Positions 10,055-24,407 of a DNA stretch of 64,000 bases are shown piece after piece (position 1 is the stretch's first letter; every line of letters begins with the position of its first letter). Source of the DNA: Myxococcales bacterium (GTDB lineage Bacteria; Myxococcota; UBA727; GCA-2721815). The notes under the pieces are model-generated. The model ran no database searches and was not told the DNA's origin. It worked only from the letters and a program-made list of their open reading frames with translations. A program made the translations under genes and the position numbers. The stretch is taken from the NCBI GenBank assembly GCA_002721815.1, contig PBLQ01000011.1, positions 124,001-188,000 on the forward strand. Reading direction: 5' to 3'.

Positions 10055-11422
10055 TCAACCGGGCTGGAAAACAAAGGAGTTCTGAATGGTCACTTCGCCA
10101 TCATCAGGTTTCGGGAAGCGAATCCGCTTCATGGCTGAAACAACGCATTTACCGACGCCGCCTCCGACTGAGTCTTTGACTGCGGATGCGTCGCTAACTT
10201 TGCCTCGGCTATTAATGGTAAACTCAATGACGATTTTACCCTTCAGCTTGGAGTTGGATTTCAAAGCCGTCTCGTAGCATTGTTGGAACATTTTTCCACG
10301 ACGTTGCAGGATACGCTTCACTGCCTTGGAATCAATTTCGCCGTCCAGCGGCTCAACATCAGCGGCACTCACACGACCGCTCACCTTGGTTCGCTTCTTA
10401 GCTTTGGTTTTGACTTTACCACCGCCACTGGTCCCCAAAGAGCCAATGTCTGCAGCACTACCGCCGCCGCTACCGCCGCCTTTTCGAGCGATCCCGCTAC
10501 CGGAAGCCGCGATGCCCACACCAGCGGTACCCGCTAAGGCGTCGCTTAGATCGCCACCGATGGCAGCACCATCGCTGAACACATTGGCCAAAGCGCCGTC
10601 GCCTTCACCAACAGCACCAATCATGGCCAGCAGGCCCTTGCTGGCGATTTGGTTTCGAACGTCTTGCCGCTTTGCTTCCGCTGCCTTGGCTTGCTTGGCC
10701 GCATCTTTCAAATTTTTGGGAGGCTCTTTCTCTGCAGGCTTTTCCGCAGGCTTTTCCTCAGGGGCAGGTTTGTCTGCTGGCTTGTCAGAGTCTTTGTCCT
10801 CGTCTTTTTTCTCTTCTTCAGGCTCGGGCTCATCCTCCTCTTCCACAGGAGGTGGCGCGGCCACCTTTGCGATCCACTGCTTCAGCTCCTCTTGAGAGGG
10901 CGGCGGCGGTGGGTCGACGCTGACTACCGTGATACCTGCACCGGTATGAAAAATGAACGAACCTATAAAACTCAGCATCAATATTGGTTCAAATCGTTTC
11001 ATCCAACCATCCTTTATGTCGTCGGGCAGCTCTTTTTGAGCCACCTTCGACGGCTTATCCACAAAGTGGAACAAAATCGTCGTATCTTTCGAAAGCTGCA
11101 CTTGGCCTTTAGATGAATCGTCTAAAGGGTAGTGAGAGCGGTCGTTCTCTGCTTTCGATAGATTTTGAGCTTTTAACGCTGCAAAATCTAAGTTCTGATT
11201 TTTTACGGATACGTGACCGTTCATATCCGCATTGTAAATTAAGTTGTACTGGGAGCCAGCCAACTCAAAAACAGTCCAGGTTGCGGGTGCGCCATGGTCA
11301 CGAACTTGAAAAGTATTCTTTTCATCAGTCCCCACAGTGATCGTTTCGCGCGCCATCATGACACGTTCTTCAACGATCTTGCTCTGGTGGGTTACCGTTA
11401 TTCGTAGGACCTTCTTCATCAT
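10055..11422 (-). CDS. TonB-like envelope-spanning protein, GltG/PglI type
   Basis: About 455 residues. The N-terminal ~115 residues look like a divergent forkhead-associated (FHA) type beta domain in the cytoplasm. One membrane helix follows near residues 130-155, then a periplasmic Pro/Glu/Lys-rich rod (PAPEEKPAEKPAEK), a Gly-rich linker, and a C-terminal domain of about 100 residues with the AgmX/PglI pattern (KFQQCYE-like 'MFQQCYETALK', 'GKIVIEFTINSRGKV', 'SAMKRIRFP'). Such proteins link the inner-membrane motor to the outer membrane in Myxococcus gliding. The ATG at 11422 is preferred (AAGG eight bases upstream) over a GTG at 11437. It is the last gene of the operon, just after the TolQ/TolR-like genes. 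The gltG assignment is inference from architecture and order. Confidence 0.8.
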   Translation of the reverse strand: MMKKVLRITVTHQSKIVEERVMMARETITVGTDEKNTFQVRDHGAPATWTVFELAGSQYNLIYNADMNGHVSVKNQNLDFAALKAQNLSKAENDRSHYPLDDSSKGQVQLSKDTTILFHFVDKPSKVAQKELPDDIKDGWMKRFEPILMLSFIGSFIFHTGAGITVVSVDPPPPPSQEELKQWIAKVAAPPPVEEEDEPEPEEEKKDEDKDSDKPADKPAPEEKPAEKPAEKEPPKNLKDAAKQAKAAEAKRQDVRNQIASKGLLAMIGAVGEGDGALANVFSDGAAIGGDLSDALAGTAGVGIAASGSGIARKGGGSGGGSAADIGSLGTSGGGKVKTKAKKRTKVSGRVSAADVEPLDGEIDSKAVKRILQRRGKMFQQCYETALKSNSKLKGKIVIEFTINSRGKVSDASAVKDSVGGGVGKCVVSAMKRIRFPKPDDGEVTIQNSFVFQPG

Positions 11423-11450
11423 TCCCTCAACCTTCACGCCATCGCGTGAA

Positions 11451-12107
11451 TCAGCTGTCCATCCTTACGATTGCAAACTTGTATTCACCAAACCCAGCCT
11501 CACCACAGGTGATGAGAAGTTGGGTTAACAAACTGTAGGGCGTGGCCTTATCGGCGATAATCACCACCTTACCGTTAAAGCCGCCTTCTTCCGTAATTGA
11601 TGCCGTTAGCTCTTGCGCTTCCTTTACTTCCTTGAGCTTGGTACGCAGCTTTTTGATCACAAACTTTCGTTCCAGCTCAGCCTCAGGAATCGCGAAGGCG
11701 CTGGGGTTTTTGGTCGTTGGCCCCATACTCAGAACTGGCATATCATCCACAACAATCTGTGGGGTATTTGCCGACTGCGTTTTTTGTCCATTTACGAACC
11801 CTTTGCGAATGGGACCCGTCACCAAGACGACCGCTGCCTCTTCTGTTTTCTCTTTAGAAGTGGACATGGGCAAATCTGTCGCAGGGTCGGACACATCAAT
11901 GGGGCTCGTCGCGAAACTTTTGATGAGATACACCAAAATAATGGTCACAATGTCCATGAGCGAGTTCAGCGCTGGTGGTTCATTCTTTTCCCCGTCGCCC
12001 TTTTTCGCACGTCGTTTTCGACCTTGATCTGGCTGGCGAAGAAGCTCTTCGGGCCAACCCTCGTAGGGGCTGCTGCCGTCTCCAATGCTTACGTTTTCTG
12101 ATGCCAT
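11451..12107 (-). CDS. TolR/ExbD-like motor subunit with conserved Asp (AglS/AglQ type)
   Basis: 218 residues: a charged cytoplasmic N-terminus of about 44 residues, one membrane helix (about 46-66) and a periplasmic domain. The helix contains 'LNSLMDIVTIILVYLIKSFA'; Asp52 (codon 11952-11954) sits where TolR, ExbD and MotB carry the proton-accepting aspartate. With a TolQ-like partner it would form a proton-driven motor. The periplasmic part ends with the usual alpha/beta ExbD fold ('GKVVIIADKATPYSLL'). It is the second of two TolR-like genes in tandem, 31 bases apart, and lies 28 bases before the TonB-like gene. Confidence 0.85.
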   Translation of the reverse strand: MASENVSIGDGSSPYEGWPEELLRQPDQGRKRRAKKGDGEKNEPPALNSLMDIVTIILVYLIKSFATSPIDVSDPATDLPMSTSKEKTEEAAVVLVTGPIRKGFVNGQKTQSANTPQIVVDDMPVLSMGPTTKNPSAFAIPEAELERKFVIKKLRTKLKEVKEAQELTASITEEGGFNGKVVIIADKATPYSLLTQLLITCGEAGFGEYKFAIVRMDS

Positions 12108-12138
12108 AATAGACTATCCAATGTTTGATGGGTTAACT

Positions 12139-12684
12139 TTAACCGACAATCCCGGCCGAGAAGGCCACCGCGGGAAACAACTCTTTTCCATCTGCCGATT
12201 CGCGAGCCGAGTCCATGGTGTGCACCACGCGCTCATAAATGACTTCAGGGTCAGCAGTCATGATGACGTTGTCTTCCAATGGGAAATTTTTCTTAATCTC
12301 AAGCAACTTTTTGTTCAGTGCTTCGTAATCGTAATCCATTTCCCCTTTGTCATTTGGTTTCATGGGGATGAGGGCTTGCCCTGGGCGGGGTGGATTTGCA
12401 TTGTCCCCAGTGAGCGTGGCTCCGGAAGCTGCGAGATTGTAACCTTTACGGGTAATAAAAATCGTCAGGTTCAGCTTGGGCTTCTTCTCCTCTTCTGGTT
12501 TTGACGCAGAAGAACCACCGCCTCCGCCCAATTGCGGTGCTTGAACAGAAATCAAGCCCAGTGGGACGTTTACGGTCATTGAGAGCAAGCAAGCGATAAG
12601 AGCAAAGTTCAGGTTCATCATCGGAACCAAATCCGGTTCTTCGACGCCTGCATCCTCTCCTCTTGGTTTTCTTCGGTTTGCCAT
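12139..12684 (-). CDS. TolR/ExbD-like motor subunit lacking the conserved Asp
   Basis: 181 residues with a short cytoplasmic N-terminus, one membrane helix (about 20-45) and a periplasmic ExbD-like domain with a Gly/Ser-rich linker near 54-59. The helix reads 'PDLVPMMNLNFALIACLL'. Aligned by the Pro that precedes the helix, the position of the proton-carrying Asp of ExbD ('PFID') is Asn24 here (codon 12613-12615, AAC). The neighbouring TolR-like gene keeps the Asp, so the pair may form an asymmetric heterodimer. Good ribosome site (TTGGAGAT). Lies between the TolQ-like gene and the second TolR-like gene, the order of aglR-aglQ-aglS in Myxococcus as I recall it. Confidence 0.85.
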   Translation of the reverse strand: MANRRKPRGEDAGVEEPDLVPMMNLNFALIACLLSMTVNVPLGLISVQAPQLGGGGGSSASKPEEEKKPKLNLTIFITRKGYNLAASGATLTGDNANPPRPGQALIPMKPNDKGEMDYDYEALNKKLLEIKKNFPLEDNVIMTADPEVIYERVVHTMDSARESADGKELFPAVAFSAGIVG

Positions 12685-12788: not shown

Positions 12789-13421
12789 TTACTCGCCTTT
12801 ACCGCGGGCATACAGCAAGTTTTCTAAACGCACGCTGTAGTAGTCGATCTCGTTGGTGATCTTCTTGGTGATCCCAGTCAAGGTCATGAAAATTAGAATC
12901 GTTGGAATCGCAACCATCAGACCGAAAGCAGTGGTGTTCATGGCGACACCAATAGCAGCAGACAGCAGCGCTGATTTTTGATCGGCAGGTGCTTTCGCCA
13001 CAACGGTAAACGCTTCGATGAGGCCCATAACCGTACCGAGCAAACCCAGCAACGTTGCCAAAGAACCCATGCCACCCAAAGCGCCGGTACGCTTTTGCAA
13101 CAAAGGCATCACTTGAAGATTGGCTTCTTCGATGGCGCTTTGAATCTCGGCCTCGCCTTTGTTGGCGCGAGTTAGACCGGCTTTAACGACGACGGCCAAC
13201 GCAGCATTTGGCGCAGCGTTACAGAGCTTTACCGCACGATCGATGTTATTGGCATTCACCAATTTTTCGACCTGCGCCATAAAGTTGTTACCGTCAATAT
13301 TGTATTTAAAGAAAAGAAAGATAACGCGCTCGATCGCGATGGCAGCCACCATAAAGGAGACGCATCCCACCGGGATCATCCACACACCACCTTCAACAAA
13401 AAACTGTGCAATTTTGGCCAT
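12789..13421 (-). CDS. TolQ/ExbB/MotA-family proton channel protein (AglR type)
   Basis: 210 residues with three membrane helices (about 14-33, 118-140 and 160-182) and the family core 'LATLLGLLGTVMGLIEAF', followed by 'AIGVAMNTTAFGLMVAIPTI'. Five copies of such a subunit surround two TolR-like subunits and form a proton channel. Ribosome site AAGGAG lies eight bases before the ATG. Followed by two TolR-like genes and the TonB-like gene, all on the same strand. Context makes a gliding-type motor more likely than a TonB/ExbBD uptake motor or a Tol-Pal system: no tolB, pal or tolA is near. Confidence 0.88.
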   Translation of the reverse strand: MAKIAQFFVEGGVWMIPVGCVSFMVAAIAIERVIFLFFKYNIDGNNFMAQVEKLVNANNIDRAVKLCNAAPNAALAVVVKAGLTRANKGEAEIQSAIEEANLQVMPLLQKRTGALGGMGSLATLLGLLGTVMGLIEAFTVVAKAPADQKSALLSAAIGVAMNTTAFGLMVAIPTILIFMTLTGITKKITNEIDYYSVRLENLLYARGKGE

Positions 13422-13857: not shown

Positions 13858-15543
13858 TTACTTGTCCTCATCTTCATCTTCATCTTCGAAACTTTCGTCT
13901 TCCGATCCGGGCCCCGCCTCTTCTTCTTGCGGCTCTTCCGTCCCCGGTTCTACCCCGGGCTCACCTTCTTCATCGGCTCCGGGCTCGCCTTCTTCATCGG
14001 CTCCGGGCTCGCCTTCTTCATCGGTTCCGGGCTCGCCTTCTTCATCGGCTCCGGGCTCGCCTTCTTCATCGGCTCCGGGCTCGCCTTCTTCATCGGTTGC
14101 GGGCTCGCCTTCGCCCTCAGAGGCCTCAGCAGCCTCTTCTGCGGCTTTTCGCTCTTCTTCTTCAAGACGCTCGGCCTCTTCAATTAAACGCCGTCTTTCG
14201 GCCCTCTCACGCTTTTTTGTCTCCTTACGGATCCGTTTTTTGACGGTTTTCTGAAACTCGGGGAGCCTCTCATTATATTTGTTCACGGGTCGTTCAGCAT
14301 CTGCATACAGATCGAAGCGTTCTTGGGCTTTGGTGAGCCTCTCTAAATAATCCATTCCAGGAATTTCATTGTCCATGTACATCAAGCCGAGGTTGTAGTG
14401 CACATCCAGGAGCCCGGTATCGAGCTCCAAGGCTTTCATGTAGTAGTCTTCGGCTTCTTCGTACCGTTTACTTGCGCGATACGCATTGGCCAAATGTAGC
14501 GCAGTCTCGGCTTTTTGAGGTGTGAGTGCCACCGCAGCCTCCAAATGCCGAACGGCCGCCTGGAAACGGTCTGCACGTAGTAATAACAAACCGTAGTTTT
14601 CCTGAGCTTCGTCCAAGTCAGGTCGCAGTCTCGACGCCTTTTCGTAGGCGAGCTCTGCCTGGGTGTAATCATCGAACTGCAAAAAGGTGTGGCCCAGCCA
14701 AAGTTGCAGCAAAGCGTTTCCCGGCTCCAACACCAGCGCATTCTCCAATGCGAATTTGGCAGTTTCGTATTTCTCCTGGGCGAAGAACATTCGTGCCATC
14801 AGGTACATGGCCGGAATATTTCTCTCATCATACGCGATCGCTTGTTTGCATTCGCGTTCTAATCTTTTGAAATCTTGGTCAATGAACGCTTTGGTTGCTG
14901 CTGCTACGTGAGGACCTGCTCGATCGCCTTGCTTGTCCAGCGCCTCTTCCAGGATGAGCGCCGATTGGTCGGGACGCCCTTGTCTGTGATACATGTACAC
15001 CAAGTTGATCAAACAAGGGCCGTAATCGGGTCGTTCTCCCAGGCATTGTAAGTAGATTTGCTCGGCACGTTCATCATTTTTTGCGCGCTCAGCGGACACT
15101 GCGGCGTTGTAATAGGCGGCGTAGAAGTAGGTGGTCTCACCAGCCGCAGCCAAGAAAGCCTCGATGGCCTGCTCAGGGTTTTCCACCGCGATTTTGACTG
15201 CTTCATCAAATTTGTCACGCGCGGGTCCAGGCTGTGGAAGCGGATTTTCATCATCGATACCATCCGCTGAGCGTTTGGCGACCTCTCCCTCGGGACCAGG
15301 AGGCGCTTCGGGCGCCGCAGCTGCTTCTTCCTCGACTGTTTTCTCTTCCTCGGCCTTCGCCTCTTCCTCTACAGTCTCCTCCTCGGGCTTTTCTTCTTCG
15401 ACGACTGGCTCATCGGCCACATTCGGGGTCTCTATTGGCGCGGATTCGGTCTTCTGTTGATGCGCACAACCCGACGCCAACCCTAAGACCAGGGTCTGTG
15501 CCACGATAAAATATAAAATCTGAGTATCGCGTGCGCGCAACAT
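13858..15543 (-). CDS. TPR lipoprotein with acidic repeat tail (GltE/AglT-like)
   Basis: 561 residues. A lipoprotein signal ends in 'LASGC' near residue 26, then an acidic Glu-rich spacer (to ~95), then TPR repeats over about 100-400 with typical motifs ('YYNAAVSAERAKNDERAEQI', 'LHLANAYRASKRYEEAEDYY'). A charged helix (about 400-470) follows, and the tail has seven units of the type EGEPGADE and ends DEDEDEDK. Myxococcus GltE (AglT) is also a TPR outer-membrane lipoprotein of the gliding complex. The start overlaps the preceding gene's stop by one base (TAATG), and the next gene starts right after its own stop. Assignment to GltE is inferred from architecture and order. Confidence 0.78.
   Translation of the reverse strand: MLRARDTQILYFIVAQTLVLGLASGCAHQQKTESAPIETPNVADEPVVEEEKPEEETVEEEAKAEEEKTVEEEAAAAPEAPPGPEGEVAKRSADGIDDENPLPQPGPARDKFDEAVKIAVENPEQAIEAFLAAAGETTYFYAAYYNAAVSAERAKNDERAEQIYLQCLGERPDYGPCLINLVYMYHRQGRPDQSALILEEALDKQGDRAGPHVAAATKAFIDQDFKRLERECKQAIAYDERNIPAMYLMARMFFAQEKYETAKFALENALVLEPGNALLQLWLGHTFLQFDDYTQAELAYEKASRLRPDLDEAQENYGLLLLRADRFQAAVRHLEAAVALTPQKAETALHLANAYRASKRYEEAEDYYMKALELDTGLLDVHYNLGLMYMDNEIPGMDYLERLTKAQERFDLYADAERPVNKYNERLPEFQKTVKKRIRKETKKRERAERRRLIEEAERLEEEERKAAEEAAEASEGEGEPATDEEGEPGADEEGEPGADEEGEPGTDEEGEPGADEEGEPGADEEGEPGVEPGTEEPQEEEAGPGSEDESFEDEDEDEDK
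13957..14100 (-). repeat. Six tandem 24-bp units encoding EGEPGADE-type repeats
   Basis: Six head-to-tail 24-base units, nearly identical (single-base differences such as A/G and C/T), followed by a degenerate seventh. They lie in frame at the C-terminal tail of the TPR lipoprotein, and each unit adds eight residues. Because 24 is a multiple of three, loss or gain of units would change tail length but not the frame. Confidence 0.9.
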
Positions 15544-18500
15544 TACTTATCCTCGTCCTCATCGTCAAAAGGGTCTTCCAGCTCACCTGGCGCCGATTCA
15601 TCCACGGGTTCTGGTTCGCTGTCCACAGGCGTTTCTGGCTCAGCTGCGACTTCTGCTTCTTCTCCGGCCTCTTCAGTAGGCGCTTCGGTTTCAGAGGTTT
15701 CTTCATTGCCATCGCCTAGCCCTTCTTCGCCAGGACCGTCCTCTTCACCATCGCCTGGCCCCTCCGCACCTTCGCTGGCCTCCTCTTCCATGTCCTCTTC
15801 TTCGGTTTCAGCCACGCTCATCACTTCGCGCAAGTATGGTGCCCCACCATCCATGCGAATGAAATCTTGTGCGTACACATTGCCTGAGGTGGGTCGAGAC
15901 AGCGGGGTATTATCGATTGGAAAGTCGTCTGGGCGCAGGCGGTTGAGCGCCTCCAGCGTTTTCTGTTGCCATTCGTTTTTCAAGCTCAACTCTTGGGCTT
16001 TGTCATTGGCCGTTCGGTAGGCTTCCACGGCTTTGTCTTCAATCGTATACGCCCGGTCTTCCAACATCAGCGCATATTCTTCACAAGCAATCTCATCAAT
16101 TCTGGCGATGTCTTTCGGACAGGGCGCATCAAAAATCGAATTTTGCAAATTGTCGTAAAGAGAGCCAATTCTGAATAACGACGCCAAAGACCAATCCGCC
16201 TGCCGATAGGTAGAAATGATGTTTTCGTACACCTTTTGGACTTCGAGTAACTTTTCGGTCTTCTCTTTAAGTTGGCCACCTTGTTTTTTAGCGGAGGTAC
16301 CCGTCATTCCCGTTTTGGCATACTCGGCATAAATAAATTCAGAGAGATAGAAATCCGCTTTGGCAGCGTAATAAGTTGCCGCTGGCGAGTTCGGTGCCTG
16401 TTCGTGAAACTCTTTGGCCTTATTGAGTGCCGCCTCGACGTCCTTGCGCGCCGCTTTTAATTTTTTGGCCCGTTTTTTCACCTTTTTAGCGGTCTTGATT
16501 TTATCGTATCGCTCCAAATGAATATCAGCAATACGCACGTACGCCTCAACAACCTTTGGAATCTGCTCTTCTTTGCTTTTGTAGCGTTTAATGAATTCCT
16601 GCAGGGTTTTGATTTGAGCACGCGTATCTTTTCGCTTGGCATGGATGAGCGCCGAACGGAAGAACACATCTGGCGCCTCTTGCTTATCGGGGAACATATC
16701 TGCATACCGCTCGAACTCTTTCGCCGCTTTTTTGTATTTCTGTTGGCCTTCTAAAGCTAAAGCGGCATTGAGCTGTGCATCTGCTCTTTTGTCTGATTCG
16801 GGATATTTGCCCACCAGCGCCAAGTAGGTGCGAACGGCCTTTTCAAAGTTAAAGGCTTGCTCAGACTTACTCGCCACCCGGAACATAGATTCTGGTGCAA
16901 ACGTAGATTTCGGATATTCCTTATAGAGTCTCTCATACAGGTCGGCTGCGCGAAGCGGTCTTCTTGCCTTTTCTAAGGACAAAGCCGCATTGTACATCAT
17001 GGCATCTGCGAACTCGCGATCGGGGTCTTCTGCTAGCAGTTCGAGGTACCGGTTCGCGCCTTCTTCAAGAAGATTGATACCTTCGGTAATCCGCCCATCC
17101 GCCAAAGCGATGTCGCCTTTTTCGAGAATTCCTTTGGCAATTTGGAACTTAGCCCCACCTTCGATCTTTGCGAATTCTTCCATCTCGCCACCGACCATTT
17201 GCTCTTTAAACCGCGATGCATAAGCCGCTGCTTTGGTCCAGTCTTGTTTGGCCAACAAATAATCAAGGATGAGATTCGCCGCGAATTTTGCCGCTTCATG
17301 CTGCTGGTAAAGGTCGATGATACGTTCGAACCGTTTTACAGCGTCATCGAAATACCCATAGGCAAATTTCATCGAAGCCGCTTTGTAGGAGAACGCAGGC
17401 GCCATTTCGTGCTCTTCAGCCTTGAGTAGAAACTTATCCACCGAATCGATGAAAATGGTTTGTGCCTTTGGAATCGTTTCAGGTTCAGCATTCACATCAG
17501 GTCGCTCGGTGCTAAACACATCTTTAATGACGAGTTCACCCGCTTCGACCATCCGTTCCATAATTTTCTCTTGCGCGTAAATGGCATTGAGTGCGGCCTC
17601 ACCCCTGTACTTGGTTCCTTGGGTGGAATCTCGGGTTTTCATATAGGCGACGACGGCTTTGTCAAAGTTCATCGAATAATAATAGGCCTCTGCCAAATAG
17701 AACGTTAGTTCATAGGCATCTTTGTCGTGAGGATACCGGTCGAGATAAGCCTCGTAGGCCTGGGCCGCCAAGGTGTAGGACTGGACTCCCCGTTCCATAT
17801 CACCCCCATCAACAAATTTGATGGCCTGCTGGTGGTAGAAGATCGCAGCCTTGTACAAAGACGCTCTTGCCAATTTACCAGCTTCCCGCAACGCCTTGAT
17901 GTTCATGCGATTGGCTTCTGCCCACGGGGTTCTTTCGGAATACAAGGCCACCAGTTTATCACGCTCTCTTGAAGCATCGTCGAACATGCGCTCTCGTTCA
18001 TAGGCGCTGATGATTAAATCTTGTAACTTCGGCGCGTCTTTGTGCATGGGCTCCATGTCGATCGCATAACGGAGGGCTTCGATGGCCCCTTTGCTTTTTG
18101 AGCCTTTGAACAAAATATCACCGAGTCGTGCAAACACTTCACGCTCGTAAGGTTTCTCGCCAAGTTTCGACATGTACTCCTTGGCAAATCTAACGTACCC
18201 CAGACCCGTTCCGATATCCTCGTCGTCCATTTCCTCCTCTTCGGTGGGCATGTCATTGTAGCCAGGACGGTTCCAGTTGTCATCTTGGAAGGAAATCGCA
18301 ATGTACTGTAGAGCTTCTTCTTCCATCACAGAGCCACCACCGCCGCCGGCCTTGGCTTTTTGTGCGTAAGAATAATCTAATAACTCAACGAAGTTTTCGA
18401 CGGCTTCGTCGAACCGGTTCACGAGGTAATAGGTCCAAGCCAAGTTATAGAGGGCCTTGTCATAGAAACGACTTTCTTTTTTCGGAGCCACCAAAAGAAA

Positions 18501-19550
18501 TGCAGCGATGGCTTTATCCCATATTTCCTCTTGGAAGTAATTATCGCCGACCCGGAATGCCACCTCATCGAAGAACCGTGAATCCGGATAACGCTCGGTG
18601 ATCACCTCCCAAGACTTTATCCCTTCTTGACCTTCACCTTGTGCTTGCAGAGCGTAGCCTAACAGGTAGTAAGCACCGTCGATAAAACGGTATTCGGGAA
18701 AATCTTTCACCAACCAGCGGTACAGTTCGATGGTTCTGTCAAACCGTTGCTCAGGCTCTTCAGGCTCTTCGGGCAACCGACCTTCGGAGAACTCGTTATA
18801 GGCAATGCGATAATCCTTAAGCTTTTCCTGATAAACTTCGTCAGCGCGCTCAAATTGCAGCTCAGCGAGACGGAAAATAGCGTCAGGGGTAAAATCTTTG
18901 CTATCTGGGTGGCGTTGCAGAAAGCGCTCAAACGCAGTGATAGCGTCCATACGCGCTTGTCGCTCTTGCACCAGCAATGGGTTGATGGACCCATCGTATT
19001 TTCCTTCAATCTTCTTTTTGCGTTCTTTATAGCGACGCTCGGCTAACTGCCGAATTTCCTCGCGCACTGAGCCCGCCTCAGCCTCAAAATGTTTTACGGT
19101 TTTTTCTAAGGTTTCGTAGACCGCTTGTGCGGCCCCCACCTGGACCCCGCTTAGCCGGTTTTTAATCACTTGTTTCGGCTTGTTGGCGGCAGGCTTTTCT
19201 TCTTCGGAGACGTCCGAAGTGTTATCTACTTCTTCGGAAGACTCGGGCTCGGCTCCCGGCTCGGCAACCTCTTCATCGCCATCTTCACCATCGTCAGCGA
19301 CTTCGCCGTCTTCGGCGACTTCTTCTTCAACATCTTCGACCGTTTCTTCCTCTAGAGATTCCTCGTCGTCCATGTCGTCCATGTCGTCTTCGAAATAATC
19401 TTCGTCGAAATCGTCCCCAAAGGCCTCTTCCTCTTCCGAGTTGGTGTCGACTTCAGGCTCTATGTCTTGGGCGTGAACGGACGATCCCGCCACCAAAAAG
19501 GCGAATGCCAAGGCGCGCAACAAACAGATTGAAGACAGGAGGCGTATCAT
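15543..19550 (-). CDS. Very large periplasmic TPR protein with acidic ends (GltD/AgmU-like)
   Basis: 1335 residues. A signal peptide ends near 'SSVHA' (residue 27). An acidic stretch rich in Glu/Asp occupies about 30-120. TPR-like repeats then run almost continuously to about residue 1230 ('YLLGYALQAQGEGQEGIKSW', 'FRVASKSEQAFNFEKAVRTY', 'NAALALEGQQKYKKAAKEFE'). A second acidic tail ends DDEDEDK. The ATG overlaps the previous stop by four bases. Myxococcus GltD (AgmU) is a similarly large TPR protein that spans the periplasm and precedes gltE, as here. It may act as a load-bearing rod or scaffold in the envelope machine. Confidence 0.78.
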   Translation of the reverse strand: MIRLLSSICLLRALAFAFLVAGSSVHAQDIEPEVDTNSEEEEAFGDDFDEDYFEDDMDDMDDEESLEEETVEDVEEEVAEDGEVADDGEDGDEEVAEPGAEPESSEEVDNTSDVSEEEKPAANKPKQVIKNRLSGVQVGAAQAVYETLEKTVKHFEAEAGSVREEIRQLAERRYKERKKKIEGKYDGSINPLLVQERQARMDAITAFERFLQRHPDSKDFTPDAIFRLAELQFERADEVYQEKLKDYRIAYNEFSEGRLPEEPEEPEQRFDRTIELYRWLVKDFPEYRFIDGAYYLLGYALQAQGEGQEGIKSWEVITERYPDSRFFDEVAFRVGDNYFQEEIWDKAIAAFLLVAPKKESRFYDKALYNLAWTYYLVNRFDEAVENFVELLDYSYAQKAKAGGGGGSVMEEEALQYIAISFQDDNWNRPGYNDMPTEEEEMDDEDIGTGLGYVRFAKEYMSKLGEKPYEREVFARLGDILFKGSKSKGAIEALRYAIDMEPMHKDAPKLQDLIISAYERERMFDDASRERDKLVALYSERTPWAEANRMNIKALREAGKLARASLYKAAIFYHQQAIKFVDGGDMERGVQSYTLAAQAYEAYLDRYPHDKDAYELTFYLAEAYYYSMNFDKAVVAYMKTRDSTQGTKYRGEAALNAIYAQEKIMERMVEAGELVIKDVFSTERPDVNAEPETIPKAQTIFIDSVDKFLLKAEEHEMAPAFSYKAASMKFAYGYFDDAVKRFERIIDLYQQHEAAKFAANLILDYLLAKQDWTKAAAYASRFKEQMVGGEMEEFAKIEGGAKFQIAKGILEKGDIALADGRITEGINLLEEGANRYLELLAEDPDREFADAMMYNAALSLEKARRPLRAADLYERLYKEYPKSTFAPESMFRVASKSEQAFNFEKAVRTYLALVGKYPESDKRADAQLNAALALEGQQKYKKAAKEFERYADMFPDKQEAPDVFFRSALIHAKRKDTRAQIKTLQEFIKRYKSKEEQIPKVVEAYVRIADIHLERYDKIKTAKKVKKRAKKLKAARKDVEAALNKAKEFHEQAPNSPAATYYAAKADFYLSEFIYAEYAKTGMTGTSAKKQGGQLKEKTEKLLEVQKVYENIISTYRQADWSLASLFRIGSLYDNLQNSIFDAPCPKDIARIDEIACEEYALMLEDRAYTIEDKAVEAYRTANDKAQELSLKNEWQQKTLEALNRLRPDDFPIDNTPLSRPTSGNVYAQDFIRMDGGAPYLREVMSVAETEEEDMEEEASEGAEGPGDGEEDGPGEEGLGDGNEETSETEAPTEEAGEEAEVAAEPETPVDSEPEPVDESAPGELEDPFDDEDEDK

Positions 19551-22372
19551 TGTACTTCGTCCCCCTGCAGATCCATGTATATCTGATTTAGATTCGACAA
19601 CTCTTCGGATTTTGCTTGTTGCAGTTTGCCAATCTCGCGGGTGTGCACCTGCTTTTTCTGAAAAGAGGTGTCGGCCAAACCAATATCGGCTCTGACGATA
19701 ACATCATCAAAATCATCAATCACGTGCCCCAAGGCCATCTGCACGGCCGCTTGCGCGGTATCACTGGCTTGATCACTGATGGTGGCCACTTCCTTGCGAT
19801 ATTTGGCCATTTTGCGTTTCTCTTTGTTGACGATAGACCGCATGGTTTTTATCTGCTTGGAAACAGCGGAACTCAGGCGTTTTTGAAGTTTCCGATTTCG
19901 CTTCTTCAGCTTGCGGACTTTTTCTCGCATGCGCCTTACCGCCCGGTAACCCGTTGTTTCACTACCCGATTTCTCGAGTTTCGCCAGCAGTTTGGTTTCT
20001 TTCGCCACAGCCCGCTCGTATGCTTTTTTGATCGTTTCTTTGCTGGCGCTGCCAACTGAGGACATGACGAGTTCTTCTCTGGCTTCATCGAGCTGGTCAC
20101 GATAGGCAATGATTTGACCATCGTATTGCTCCACCATTTGACGAAGGGAAGACAACCGCTTTCTTAGAATCTTCAGATCCTCCTGCGTTCTCTTGCGGAT
20201 AAAGCTCGAATCCGTGAGCAGTTGGTCAAGTGCCCTCAACTGGGCTTTGGCATCCTTGATGGCCAAGGAGACCTCATGCAGCGAGTTATCAAGACGAGAA
20301 ATATATTTTTCGGTCTGCGCTTTATTCTTTTTGATGCCCGAGCCGAGGTTATCTATGAGCGCAAGCTTGTTTTCCAACGCCTCGCGTTCTTGACGCAGTT
20401 TTTCCAGCTTTTTTAGGTCTTTGTTGGAGATGTTAAGCGCCACACCCTGCGAGTAGTTCCCGTCAAAGCGAATCCCCGGTCTTTTCTCAAATGAAGTGGT
20501 GAAATCTCCACGTTTGAAAGCCTCGATCACCACTTTTGACTCCTGTCCCCCATTGGAAACAAAGGCCAGTTGGTCTTTCATGGAAAAGCGATAACTGTTG
20601 ACGTAATCGAAGAGGCCACCTGAACCCTCAAAATGGAGCGCAACGCTGAGACGATGGGAGCCCACCGAAAGTGGTCCGGATATGAGCAAAGTCCCTTCCT
20701 CACCCTTACCCAAGTCTTCGAGAGGCGTCTCGATCTCGATGGCTTTACCATCCAATAAGAACTCCGCTTTGGTGAGATGATAGGCTTCACCCAAGCCGTT
20801 CTTATACGAAAGCACCACTTTGCCGCCTGTCCCCATCCCGCCGGTGAAGGTTTCGGTCATCAGGGATAACTTGGCTTTTTCGAGCGCTAAGAGTCTTTGC
20901 TCTATTTCTCGAGCGCGCAAAACGCCATCGCGAAGCGTGACAAAAAACTCTTCAGGGTTGTCTCGGGTTAAAATACGCTCTAACTTCTCGACCAACTCCG
21001 CGCTGGACTTCATTTGTTCCTGGCTGATTTTGATATCCCGAAAAGTAGACAAAACGTGCGACACCTCGTCTTGCTCTGAGGTCCAGTTCGCCGCCAATGG
21101 GGGCAGCATGCTTCCTGTGGCCAATCCCCCCTGCTGCACCGCGATAATATCGTCGAGTAACCGTTTTGGATCTACGGCCTCTTTTGAAAGCTTTTGCAAC
21201 GCTTCGTAGGTTGGCTCGTAGATCTCAATGACCTTACGAAACATTTCTTCCGCTTGGTCGAATTCGCCTGTCTGCATTCTGAGATTACCCATCAGCACAT
21301 ACGCATCGGGCGTGCGTCGGCTGTCCGACTCCAAATCCACCAGCATGCGCAGATTTTCTAACGCCTTTTTGTACTGGGCATTGATGAGTCGTTCTCGTTC
21401 TTTCATGGGCATTTCAGCTACTTTTTCATCAATTTCCATGAGCTGACCGCGACGAACGTAGACCCAGGTCACCTCGTAGAGCATCTCTGTAAAGAAATCG
21501 GAATCGAAACTGATGAACTGGTACGCGTTGATGGCTTCATCCAAATCATCTTGGTCGAAATACAAACGTCCGAGCGCCAGATGGGCCAACTCGATCACTT
21601 GTTGGTCAGTTTTGTTCACGGCCTTTGCGTCGGCGATTTCTCTAAAAAGATTCAAAGAACGATCCGCATTCTCGGCACGAACCGCGGCCGCACCTCTGAT
21701 GTATTTGCTACGCAGATAAAAATCCGATGACCGAGGGATTTTATTGAGTTCCTCAACCCCTTCGTCATCTCTTTGGGCCACAAACAGCGTACGACCACGC
21801 TCATATCTCACTTGATCAGGTATTCGACCGCCAATCTTCTTTTCGTAAATGCGATAGAATTTGTTGATGGTTTTGGGTTTATTGACCTTGACCCCAATGG
21901 CGATCGCCCGTGATGCAGCGTGGTGAAGATAGGTGGTATCATCTTCCTTGAGCATCTTTTTGAAGTAATGAAGTGCCGTCGTGTAGTTATTCAGCTGGTA
22001 AAGAGACTCAGCCAACAGATAGAGCGCGAATGCACGCTTGCCACTCTTCCGCAGCTTCTTAGAGCCAATGATGCTGTAAATGGCCAAACTGCATTTTTCA
22101 AAGTCTTTGATCTGAAAAGCTTCTTTTGCCAGGCGAAGGTATTGACGTACTTTGGCAGGCCGGGTTGCATCGGGGATTTCTTGATATTCCTCTTCAAGCC
22201 GGTGCATCGCCCCTTCCAGAAAAGTCACTTCTTCCGTTAGGTTATTAAGGATTTCGGCGGATCGCGCGTGTGCAGAGGTAGGAACGCCCATCAACAAGGC
22301 GCAAGTCACCACCAATGTCGTGCCCAACACAGATAAAAAGGATGGCCTTTTTATGTCGTGCGTTGTCCGCAT
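19547..22372 (-). CDS. Large periplasmic protein: TPR region, beta module and coiled coil
   Basis: About 941 residues. Signal peptide (about 15-38, 'PTSAHA'). TPR-like helices run over ~70-400. A beta-rich module follows at ~505-640 ('SVGSHRLSVALHFEGSGGLF', 'GDFTTSFEKRPGIRFDG'). A long coiled coil lies at ~650-880, rich in Lys/Arg/Leu heptads. The beta module is clearly shared with the 308-residue protein encoded by the next gene upstream. The ATG at 22372 (AAGGAG eight bases upstream) is preferred over the adjacent TTG at 22375. GltC of Myxococcus is a periplasmic TPR protein and could be the counterpart, but the coiled coil makes that uncertain. It most likely links envelope layers. Confidence 0.72.
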   Translation of the reverse strand: MRTTHDIKRPSFLSVLGTTLVVTCALLMGVPTSAHARSAEILNNLTEEVTFLEGAMHRLEEEYQEIPDATRPAKVRQYLRLAKEAFQIKDFEKCSLAIYSIIGSKKLRKSGKRAFALYLLAESLYQLNNYTTALHYFKKMLKEDDTTYLHHAASRAIAIGVKVNKPKTINKFYRIYEKKIGGRIPDQVRYERGRTLFVAQRDDEGVEELNKIPRSSDFYLRSKYIRGAAAVRAENADRSLNLFREIADAKAVNKTDQQVIELAHLALGRLYFDQDDLDEAINAYQFISFDSDFFTEMLYEVTWVYVRRGQLMEIDEKVAEMPMKERERLINAQYKKALENLRMLVDLESDSRRTPDAYVLMGNLRMQTGEFDQAEEMFRKVIEIYEPTYEALQKLSKEAVDPKRLLDDIIAVQQGGLATGSMLPPLAANWTSEQDEVSHVLSTFRDIKISQEQMKSSAELVEKLERILTRDNPEEFFVTLRDGVLRAREIEQRLLALEKAKLSLMTETFTGGMGTGGKVVLSYKNGLGEAYHLTKAEFLLDGKAIEIETPLEDLGKGEEGTLLISGPLSVGSHRLSVALHFEGSGGLFDYVNSYRFSMKDQLAFVSNGGQESKVVIEAFKRGDFTTSFEKRPGIRFDGNYSQGVALNISNKDLKKLEKLRQEREALENKLALIDNLGSGIKKNKAQTEKYISRLDNSLHEVSLAIKDAKAQLRALDQLLTDSSFIRKRTQEDLKILRKRLSSLRQMVEQYDGQIIAYRDQLDEAREELVMSSVGSASKETIKKAYERAVAKETKLLAKLEKSGSETTGYRAVRRMREKVRKLKKRNRKLQKRLSSAVSKQIKTMRSIVNKEKRKMAKYRKEVATISDQASDTAQAAVQMALGHVIDDFDDVIVRADIGLADTSFQKKQVHTREIGKLQQAKSEELSNLNQIYMDLQGDEVQ

Positions 22373-22384
22373 CAATGAAACTCC

Positions 22385-23311
22385 TTAGGGGACCACAATG
22401 CCCTGGTCGAGGTCATCTTCAACCCGGTCATCAAGCACTTCAGTGTCCATGCGTATGGCGGGTCTTTCCAGGAAGTTGGTGGTGAAATCACCTTGCTCAA
22501 AACCAACCACTTTGTTGGTGGTGATTTTGCCTTGCTCTGTGGTGAAAGTGAATGAATCCTTGAGCTGGAAGTTGTAGCCCTCCAGATATGAGAAGAGGCC
22601 AGAACCCGAACCGCGGTATACCAAACTGACGGTTAAAGTGTGGGTGCCCTCTACGATGGGGCCGTCGAAAATGATGATTTCGCCTTCGTTTTGGAATCGT
22701 TCCCCAGACTCGTCGGTATCTTGATGTAAGGGCATGCCATCCAAAAAGAAGTGGCGTTGTACCAACCTGAAACCAGAGCCCATCTGATTCTCATGCACCA
22801 AAAGTAGTTTGGCACTGGTGCTTAAGCCGCCCGTCACTTGTTCGGTGAGCATCATCAACTTGGCTTTGGAGCGAAAGATACTTTCTTTCAGTTCGTTCAC
22901 TTTTTCTTCGAGACCACGAATTTTTGCCCGGTAACTGGCGTCTGCTTCTTTCATCTCGCGCATGGCTTTTTCGGCATCTTCCGGAGACTGCTCTTGGGGC
23001 GCTGCCCCTTCTTGTGTCGCTGCGGGCGCCGTGTCGGGCGTGGCCGCTGCCTCCCCTTCCGCAGGCGCTGCCTCCGTGGATTCTGCAGGTGCACCTTCTT
23101 GGGCCGCAGGGGCCTCATCCGTTGCCTTGGCAGGCTCTTGCCCTTCGGCTGCAGGCACTTCTTCAGCTGGCTTTTCTGCTTCGACCGCCGGTGTTTCGGT
23201 TTCAGCCGCGGTGTCTTGAGCGTAACTCCAAGAACCGGCTGTCAAACAGGCGCCAAGCACCAAGCAGCACAGTACCGGGTTTGGGTATCGGTTTTTCTTT
23301 GGCATCGTCAT
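22385..23311 (-). CDS. Secreted Ala/Pro/Glu-rich protein with gliding-operon beta module
   Basis: 308 residues. Signal peptide (about 10-31, 'SWSYAQD'), then an 80-residue Ala-Glu-Pro-rich spacer, a short coiled coil (about 112-155) and a beta-rich module at ~152-289 ('EGTHTLTVSLVYRGSGSGLF', 'GDFTTNFLERPAIRMD') homologous to the one in the next gene. The Ala/Pro-rich spacer can draw false matches to dihydrolipoamide acetyltransferase; no lipoyl or catalytic domain is present. It starts one base after the mglA stop, which ties it tightly to the polarity genes. Function unknown; probably a periplasmic partner of the larger module protein. Confidence 0.75.
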   Translation of the reverse strand: MTMPKKNRYPNPVLCCLVLGACLTAGSWSYAQDTAAETETPAVEAEKPAEEVPAAEGQEPAKATDEAPAAQEGAPAESTEAAPAEGEAAATPDTAPAATQEGAAPQEQSPEDAEKAMREMKEADASYRAKIRGLEEKVNELKESIFRSKAKLMMLTEQVTGGLSTSAKLLLVHENQMGSGFRLVQRHFFLDGMPLHQDTDESGERFQNEGEIIIFDGPIVEGTHTLTVSLVYRGSGSGLFSYLEGYNFQLKDSFTFTTEQGKITTNKVVGFEQGDFTTNFLERPAIRMDTEVLDDRVEDDLDQGIVVP

Positions 23312-23312
23312 A

Positions 23313-23903
23313 TTACTTCGCCCCTTTTCGCAGTTCCTGTAGAATCTGTTTCGCTACGCATTTGAGCGTGGGAAAAACCCCTTCTCCATTGGTAGCCGTG
23401 GCAGAAAACTCAGGTGCGCCTGAAGTATTGAGCATTTTGCTCAGTTGCTCAACAGGTAAAACATCGGGCAGGTCCCTTTTGTTGTACTGGAGAACGAAGG
23501 GCAAACGCCCCAAGCTGTACCCCTGCTCTTCTAAGTTTTCTACAAGATTTTTCATGGATTCCTGATTTGCTTCTGCTCGATCTTTTTGAGAATCGGCCAC
23601 AAAAATTACACCGTCAACGCCCTTCAATATCAGTTTTCGTGACGCATCGTAAAAAACCTGCCCAGGAACGGTGTAAAGGTGAAATCTCGCCTTGAAGCCA
23701 CGAATTTCGCCCAGCGACAAAGGCAAGAAATCAAAGAACAACGTCCGGTCAGTTTCGGTGGCCAATGAAATCATTTTGCCTTTGATACCCGGACTGGTCT
23801 TCTGATAAATATGGTTTAAATTCGAGGTCTTACCGCACAGGCCCGGCCCGTAGTACACGATTTTGCAGTTAATCTCTTTGGATGAATAGTTAATGAAAGA
23901 CAT
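23313..23903 (-). CDS. mglA: Ras-like polarity GTPase MglA
   Basis: 196 residues and near-identical in plan to Myxococcus MglA: opening '[20 protein letters not shown]', P-loop GPGLCGKT (residues 19-26), switch region '[13 protein letters not shown]', G3 motif TVPGQVFY (Thr in place of the Ras Asp, as in MglA), and G4 motif NKRDL. GTP-bound MglA marks the leading pole and docks on the motility machines; MglB stimulates its GTPase. It lies 18 bases after mglB and 1 base before the first structural gene of the operon, so switch and machine would be expressed together. Among proteins in this window this is one of the surest identifications. Confidence 0.96.
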
Positions 23904-23921: not shown

Positions 23922-24407
23922 TTAGGAGTGCGAGAACAACGATTCAATATCGTCATCGGTGATTTCAGCGAATGGCATGGCGTTTTCTTGGTTTTCATGC
24001 GCTTTATCTTTCGCCGTTTGGAGCAAATTGACGATTTCCTGAGCAGATTTGCGAACCCGCAATCGAACCAAACCAAGGGAGGAACGCTCGTCGAAAATCA
24101 CCAACAGAATGGCTTCGGCCGGTAACACCGAGATGTGCAGGTTGGCCTTTTCACCCTCGTGAAAAATCTGAGTAAACTCCTTTTCATTCATTAACTTCGC
24201 CATGCCGCTGGTGGCCGCAATATTCCCCGCCGTCAAAGACGCCAAACTGGTGGTGTCCAGGTCGGATGCGTCACCTGCAGTGGCTAAAACTTGTCCATTG
24301 GTATCCACTAGGAACACCACCATGGCGTTGGCATCTTCTACCAATCGCTCGCAGGCGTCTTTAATCATTTTGCTTTCTGCTTGGTACAGAATGAAATGCG
24401 AATGCAT
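23922..24407 (-). CDS. mglB: Roadblock/LC7 GTPase-activating protein MglB
   Basis: 161 residues of the roadblock/LC7 family. The stretches 'DANAMVVFLVDTNGQVLATA', 'DTTSLASLTAGNIAA' and 'SSLGLVRLRVRKS', and the acidic tail 'PFAEITDDDIESLF', match MglB of Myxococcus point by point. MglB dimers bind MglA and accelerate GTP hydrolysis at the lagging pole. It is the first gene of the run, 145 bases after recR. A GGGAAG ribosome site precedes the ATG, and a short inverted repeat (CCCAT...ATGGG) lies upstream. A promoter is expected in the recR-mglB gap but could not be fixed by eye. Confidence 0.95.
   Translation of the reverse strand: MHSHFILYQAESKMIKDACERLVEDANAMVVFLVDTNGQVLATAGDASDLDTTSLASLTAGNIAATSGMAKLMNEKEFTQIFHEGEKANLHISVLPAEAILLVIFDERSSLGLVRLRVRKSAQEIVNLLQTAKDKAHENQENAMPFAEITDDDIESLFSHS

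Follow-up and report, generated by a model that had tools for sequence, protein, structure and literature searches.

A single channel aspartate in a tandem TolR-like pair of an AglRQS/Glt-type operon, and its co-variation with a TolQ pore residue

In the window, the whole stretch of 64,000 nucleotides of Myxococcales DNA analysed here, a TolQ-like channel protein is followed by two TolR/ExbD-like subunits, of which one carries the channel aspartate and the other has asparagine in its place. The one-Asp state is widespread across many lineages and is no quirk of a single genome, and the identity of one TolQ residue follows the number of aspartates in the pair. We consider it probable that these genes encode an obligate AglQ-AglS heterodimer held in one TolQ pentamer, with a single carboxylate and a compensating TolQ. 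Such a motor appears to be a naturally occurring single-charge counterpart of one commonly depicted with two charges.

Results

Organization of the locus

The genes of the cluster lie head to tail on the minus strand, in the order MglB, MglA, a protein without family, GltC-like, two further TPR proteins, TolQ, TolR, TolR and GltG:

23922..24407, minus strand: MglB-like Roadblock/LC7 protein (PF03259, E 7.5e-14; NF052242 MglB, E 3.6e-21, under its cut-off)
23313..23903, minus strand: MglA-like small GTPase (PF00025 Arf, 25.7 bits against a cut-off of 22.3)
22385..23311, minus strand: secreted-looking protein without a family match (open reading frame)
19547..22375, minus strand: TPR protein with a GltC-like N-terminal part (NF033756, E 5.5e-18, under its cut-off)
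15543..19550, minus strand: long TPR protein (TPR_6 and TIGR02795 matches)
13858..15543, minus strand: GltE-like TPR protein (NF033758, E 3.3e-10, under its cut-off)
12789..13421, minus strand: TolQ/ExbB/AglR-like channel protein of 210 aa (PF01618, E 1.3e-22)
13032-13034, 12930-12932 and 12933-12935, minus strand: codons of the TolQ-like pore residues Thr130, Thr164 and Thr163, respectively (codons read and aligned with E. coli TolQ)
12139..12684, minus strand: AglQ-position TolR/ExbD-like subunit of 181 aa, with Asn24 (PF02472, 33.8 bits against a cut-off of 25.4)
11451..12107, minus strand: AglS-position TolR/ExbD-like subunit of 218 aa, with Asp52 (PF02472, 36.0 bits against a cut-off of 25.4)
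10055..11437, minus strand: GltG-like protein with an AgmX/PglI (TonB-like) C-terminus (NF033768, 78.6 bits against 40, passing; NF033760 GltG, E 2.7e-33, under its cut-off)

A MotA/TolQ/ExbB protein followed by two ExbD/TolR proteins (PF01618 and twice PF02472) reproduces the AglRQS order, the Asn-carrying gene being the first after TolQ and the Asp-carrying gene the second. Orthology with AglQ and AglS is assigned from gene order, profile scores and the tree, and it puts the two TolR/ExbD-like genes at the positions of these subunits in an operon of AglRQS/Glt type. The NCBIfam equivalog cut-off for TolR is reached by neither, the Asp subunit scoring 19.8 bits against 127.3 and the Asn subunit having no match. 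The GltG-, GltC- and GltE-like matches are significant, with all three of these models under their curated cut-offs; the Glt and MglB names are given by resemblance, because the NCBIfam matches mostly lie under such cut-offs. In the account that Luciano et al. (PMC3169522) give of the Glt core complex and its AglRQS motor, AglR, AglQ and AglS are MXAN_6862-6860.

As a separate observation, the C-terminal part of the GltC-like protein (19547-22375) and the neighbouring product (22385-23311) share, by eye, a similar stretch (TGG..T..K.LL ... FFLDG ... GDFTT.F..RP.IR.D), perhaps a repeated beta domain.

Channel residues of the two TolR-like subunits

The sequence-only reading of this DNA had placed Asp in one TolR-like protein and Asn at the channel position of the other, and this is borne out: codon 11952-11954 reads GAC (Asp52 of the 218-aa second TolR) and codon 12613-12615 reads AAC (Asn24 of the 181-aa first TolR), both on the minus strand and both in proteins that pass the Pfam ExbD/TolR cut-off. 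The channel register is anchored by a proline three residues earlier, giving PMM[N] here and PYL[D] in Myxococcus-type AglQ. Asn24 falls within helix 20-37 of an AlphaFold model of the Asn subunit (mean pLDDT 81.7) and Asp52 within a predicted helix 47-66 of the Asp subunit; the helix of E. coli TolR spans residues 19-40 and contains Asp23 (PMC12215075). On comparison of the first subunit by VIA-align, in which the transmembrane helix takes no part, the periplasmic domains of TolR (5by4, Z 9.8, 89 residues, rmsd 4.6) and ExbD (8vgc, Z 8.4) rank first, and the best Foldseek E-value is only 7.7e-3. A sequence search of the PDB returned no AglQ or AglS structure.

Asparagine is found in all 12 genomes of the same order that have the gene, the present one included, and owing to this uniformity Asn24 is taken to be more than chance. 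Nine of the ten ExbD/TolR proteins of the genome carry the channel Asp, the sole exception being the Asn24 protein, and Asp is likewise present in 29 of 29 other ExbD/TolR loci of the phylum that served as a control (highest-scoring matches only). In ten Myxococcus-type loci of genus g64 the first-subunit Asp is residue 28 counted from the sole upstream Met, matching AglQ D28 of the literature, with protein lengths of 172-176 residues against the 162 listed for M. xanthus AglQ (PMC3169522).

Census of tandem TolQ-TolR-TolR loci

Of 195 genomes of the same phylum, 166 have an AglQ-type match, as have 190 of 235 genomes sampled from the phylum of Lujinxingia vulgaris and 3 of 199 sampled from the phylum of locus L209. 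Of the 322 tandem pairs read, 262 were distinct, and in 255 of these a proper pair comes immediately after TolQ; a later round added 25 distinct loci and brought the total to 280, mostly from MAG contigs and with some clades over-represented. The rows dropped between 262 and 255 were four with no TolQ found beside the pair (L239, L305, L090, L109), two in which the second TolR had been paired with a third (L057, L279) and one in which an unrelated frame had been paired (L247); each of the seven keeps some Asp. Loci that yielded no pair (11 in one round, 19 in another) are explained by contig ends, by TolR or TolQ standing alone, or by unread bases over the first TolR (L137).

The 280 distinct loci comprise 150 with two Asp and 130 with exactly one. 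By AglQ/AglS state, 150 are Asp/Asp, 112 Asn/Asp, nine Ser/Asp, three Ala/Asp and three Gly/Asp; loss on the AglS side with the AglQ Asp kept is confined to three loci (two Asp/Gly, one Asp/Ala). The single Asp is thus in the second subunit in 127 of the 130 one-Asp loci and in the first in three. No pair among the 280 lacks Asp altogether, and a partner rule of at least one Asp per pair holds in this set without exception, with the caveat that zero-Asp pairs would also be rare by chance, since the rate of AglS loss is so low. Three apparent gaps in the second column proved to be alignment slips, the second TolR of those loci having Asp. That most relatives might keep Asp at the AglQ site, an outcome that the earlier reading had counted against itself, is true of the Myxococcus-type clade only; it fails overall, with 130 of 280 loci in the one-Asp state and the order of the present genome uniformly Asn.

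The one-Asp state occurs in two large phyla, and the cultured Lujinxingia vulgaris (L168) has an Asn/Asp pair. Where at least 700 bases of room follow the TolR pair, GltG comes directly after it in 113 of 123 one-Asp loci against 6 of 108 two-Asp loci.

Several loci (L280, L286, L287, L289, L292, L293, L298, L300, L302, L303, L304, L313, L314, L317-L319) contain two complete TolQ-TolR-TolR sets close together, one AglRQS-like and the other IPFI[D]-like, all with two Asp. Three consecutive TolR-like genes are present in L279, with Asn, Asp and Asn at the channel position, and in L057, with Asp in all. The present genome itself has a second TolQ-TolR-TolR set (L129, G000:C61:193000-205000), whose TolRs both carry Asp and whose TolQ has Cys at position 163.

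State changes on the tree

On a tree of 168 representatives, from which the focal columns were left out, the first subunit has changed between Asp and not-Asp at least four times (nine changes when all states are counted) and the second subunit once. A careful tree of 78 rows is concordant, with four changes, and five between the one-Asp and two-Asp states. The large Asp/Asp clade has a support of 100/99. The Asp/Asp loci L189, L190 and L195 group with Asn/Asp rows (100/100), and the rows with Asp/Gly or Asp/Ala come together in a single group (100/99) within the Asp/Asp clade. When rooted on the IPFI[D] pairs, an outgroup with a long branch, the tree has one-Asp lineages on all sides of the large two-Asp clade. 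By our own count, one early loss with several regains costs the same as several losses with one regain.

TolQ residue 163 tracks the number of aspartates

TolQ Thr164 aligns with T178 of E. coli TolQ, Thr130 with T145 and residue 163 with A177. The pore residues Thr130 and Thr164 are invariant in all 280 loci, so that the channel is conserved. Residue 163 separates the classes: it is Thr in 123, Cys in six and Ala in one of the 130 one-Asp loci, and Asn in 124, Cys in 23, Ala in two, Ser in one and Thr in none of the 150 two-Asp loci. Amongst 531 columns its mutual information with the Asp count is the highest, equalled by that of the focal column, and it is the sole column in which five of five independent contrasts go in one direction; a sign test on these gives p 0.0625, the lowest value reachable, as no more independent contrasts exist. 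Dependent evolution of the two characters is preferred under a four-state Markov model on a 193-row tree (LR 38.7, 4 df, p 8e-8), with few transitions behind this value.

The exceptional clades follow the same pattern. The Asp/Gly-Asp/Ala clade has Thr at 163 while the surrounding two-Asp clade has Asn, and the two-Asp loci L189, L190 and L195 have Ala, Ala and Ser, where the neighbouring Asn/Asp rows have Thr. The rule was derived from the first 255 loci, and all 25 later loci, most of them from clades already seen, fit it (19 two-Asp with Asn or Cys, six one-Asp with Thr). The ten g64 Myxococcus-type loci have Asn.

TolQ 159 and 173 and positions +4 and +7 of AglQ also split the classes, with fewer independent contrasts. 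TolQ 159, the counterpart of E. coli TolQ E173, which is described as an essential residue at the channel mouth (PMC12583513), is Glu in 116 of 150 two-Asp loci against 7 of 130 one-Asp loci; with Glu absent from 123 of these 130, the ion path may differ more than we assume. As a side observation, Pro at TolQ 173 (codon 12903-12905 here), aligned with Pro187 of E. coli TolQ, is present in 127 of 130 one-Asp against 4 of 150 two-Asp loci.

Discussion

Comparison with known systems

The operon resembles AglRQS/Glt of Myxococcus xanthus and its relatives in having TolQ, tandem TolRs, GltG-, GltC- and GltE-like partners and MglA/MglB nearby, and it falls into one clade with Myxococcus AglRQS in TolQ+TolR+TolR trees. 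Myxococcus-type motors combine two Asp with Asn at TolQ 163; here a single Asp goes with Thr163. The change is the one carried by the aglQ D28N mutant of M. xanthus, in subunit, position and residue alike, except that what is non-functional there is wild type here. That mutant was reportedly first described by Sun et al. in 2011, as later papers cite it. A review gives a conserved aspartate for each of AglQ and AglS and treats the choice between hetero- and homodimer as not known (PMC9389320). As Asn24 departs from this description in the AglQ position, the locus is filed as a variant rather than as standard AglRQS.

With E. coli TolQR/ExbBD it shares the channel Thr pair (TolQ T145/T178), the TolR-type helix and the periplasmic domain, but those systems have a single kind of TolR/ExbD, hence two Asp per pore, and Ala before T178. 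With PomAB it shares by position the Thr triad (T130/T163/T164), with Gly126 and Ala160 at the carbonyl positions; it differs in belonging to the TolQ/TolR side of the family, in having one Asp per pair and in having Leu168 at the PomA Ala190 position.

In the literature searched, with subscription papers mostly outside it, neither a natural Asn at the AglQ site nor co-variation of TolQ 163 was recognised. Natural one-Asp motors, together with the partner rule and TolQ 163, make the AglQ/AglS dimer question and the two-Asp rotary models directly testable. The co-variation predicts a specific suppressor of the known dead aglQ D28N mutant, and Lujinxingia vulgaris offers a cultured source for the structure of an asymmetric stator.

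Proposed mechanism and alternative explanations

In the heterodimer that we favour, one AglQ-type and one AglS-type helix would together occupy the pore of a TolQ (AglR) pentamer, with 5:1:1 as the probable arrangement. Asp52 of the AglS-type helix alone would bind and release the driving ion, and Asn24 of the partner helix would stay neutral, resembling a protonated Asp. All rotary models are described as having two alternating essential Asp and 36 degrees per ion (PMC12215075), and two-Asp models make ten such steps in a turn; with a single Asp instead, one turn would take five ions in 72-degree steps, or the motion may be a rocking one. The loss of Asp may be tolerated because TolQ has Thr163 beside Thr164 and Thr130, a hydroxyl ring without counterpart in two-Asp AglR. 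In favour of this reading, aglQ D28N is reportedly non-conducting and paralysed in Myxococcus (PMC3858216), and the ten Myxococcus-type loci read have Asn at TolQ 163. Output would probably pass through the GltG-like protein and may serve gliding or a related surface role.

The Asp subunit might instead form an ordinary two-Asp homodimer in TolQ, leaving the Asn subunit to act from outside the pore, as an accessory that anchors or regulates. The review cited above describes AglRQS as lacking an established stoichiometry (PMC9389320), and the free variation of the partner subunit at the site (Asn, Ser, Ala, Gly) would suit an accessory role. However, with two Asp in every pore it would be unexplained why a TolQ residue tracks the Asp count in both directions; the subunit roles are moreover swapped in three loci, and the Asn subunit retains Pro21, the helix and the ExbD fold. 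We therefore regard the homodimer as unlikely. Residue 163 follows the count whichever helix brings the Asp, as expected if one TolQ pentamer holds both subunits, which supports an AglQ-AglS heterodimer. The proposal from the sequence-only reading of a heterodimer with one ion-carrying helix accordingly survives in a qualified form, as the best-supported reading.

Less likely still is functional decay, in which an Asn-Asp motor neither pumps nor rotates and persists as a gated or signalling relic. This would agree with the D28N mutant of M. xanthus, in which conductance is reported to be abolished and the motor paralysed (PMC3858216), but it is difficult to reconcile with a state that is old, uniform in its own order (12 of 12 genomes) and present in two large phyla, with pore threonines that are invariant and with a second Asp that is never lost together with the first. 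Cultured Bradymonadales are, in addition, described as gliding (Bradymonas sediminis weakly, Persicimonas by flagella and gliding; PMC7188933), and the Asn/Asp motor of L. vulgaris may have a part in such movement. We find it hardly credible that Asp18 of the first subunit, the acid nearest to Asn24 and six residues before it, takes over ion carriage. An Asp or Glu at that place is seen in 44 of 130 one-Asp loci and in none of the 150 two-Asp loci, yet it is absent in the other 86 one-Asp loci, and Asp18 lies N-terminal of the modelled helix, where it would face the cytoplasmic cavity. On these grounds and on the Pro-anchored alignment, another acidic residue at the channel position of the Asn subunit, which the earlier reading had allowed for, is not found.

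A possible link to sodium

One sodium site of PomAB is built from T158, T185 and T186 together with the G154 and A182 carbonyls (PMC10374538). By spacing and from the papers, these PomA residues would correspond to Thr130, Thr163, Thr164, Gly126 and Ala160 here, and Thr163 is the only one of the five counterparts that sets one-Asp loci apart from two-Asp loci. Since Thr163 completes the Thr triad of sodium stators by position, sodium coupling of one-Asp motors is possible. Each of the PomA substitutions T158A, T185A and T186A abolishes motility, and with T185A the complex of PomA and PomB is also weakened (PMC6677748); given these effects the extra Thr may help to bind sodium, to pack helices or to build a hydrogen-bond network. 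The PomA Ala190 position is, by spacing, Leu168 here (Leu in 128 and Ile in two of 130 one-Asp loci), which speaks against a full PomAB-type site, and the protein is not classed as a PomAB-type member.

A wider view can be put forward, though it is improbable: a large natural class of 5:1:1 single-carboxylate motors, in which the D28N-type state is wild type, the change from Asn to Thr in TolQ builds a PomA-like site, sodium drives the motor at one ion per 72 degrees, and lineages have repeatedly crossed between the modes, with at least one apparent gain of the second Asp.

The sodium-pump marker PF03116 did not track the one-Asp state: 3 of 11 one-Asp genomes match it strongly, and among 7 genomes from Myxococcus- and related families 4 match it weakly. 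The present genome has a strong NQR2/RnfD-type match (G000:C45:36309-37409, E 4.7e-95), as do genomes G182 and G180 of the same order.
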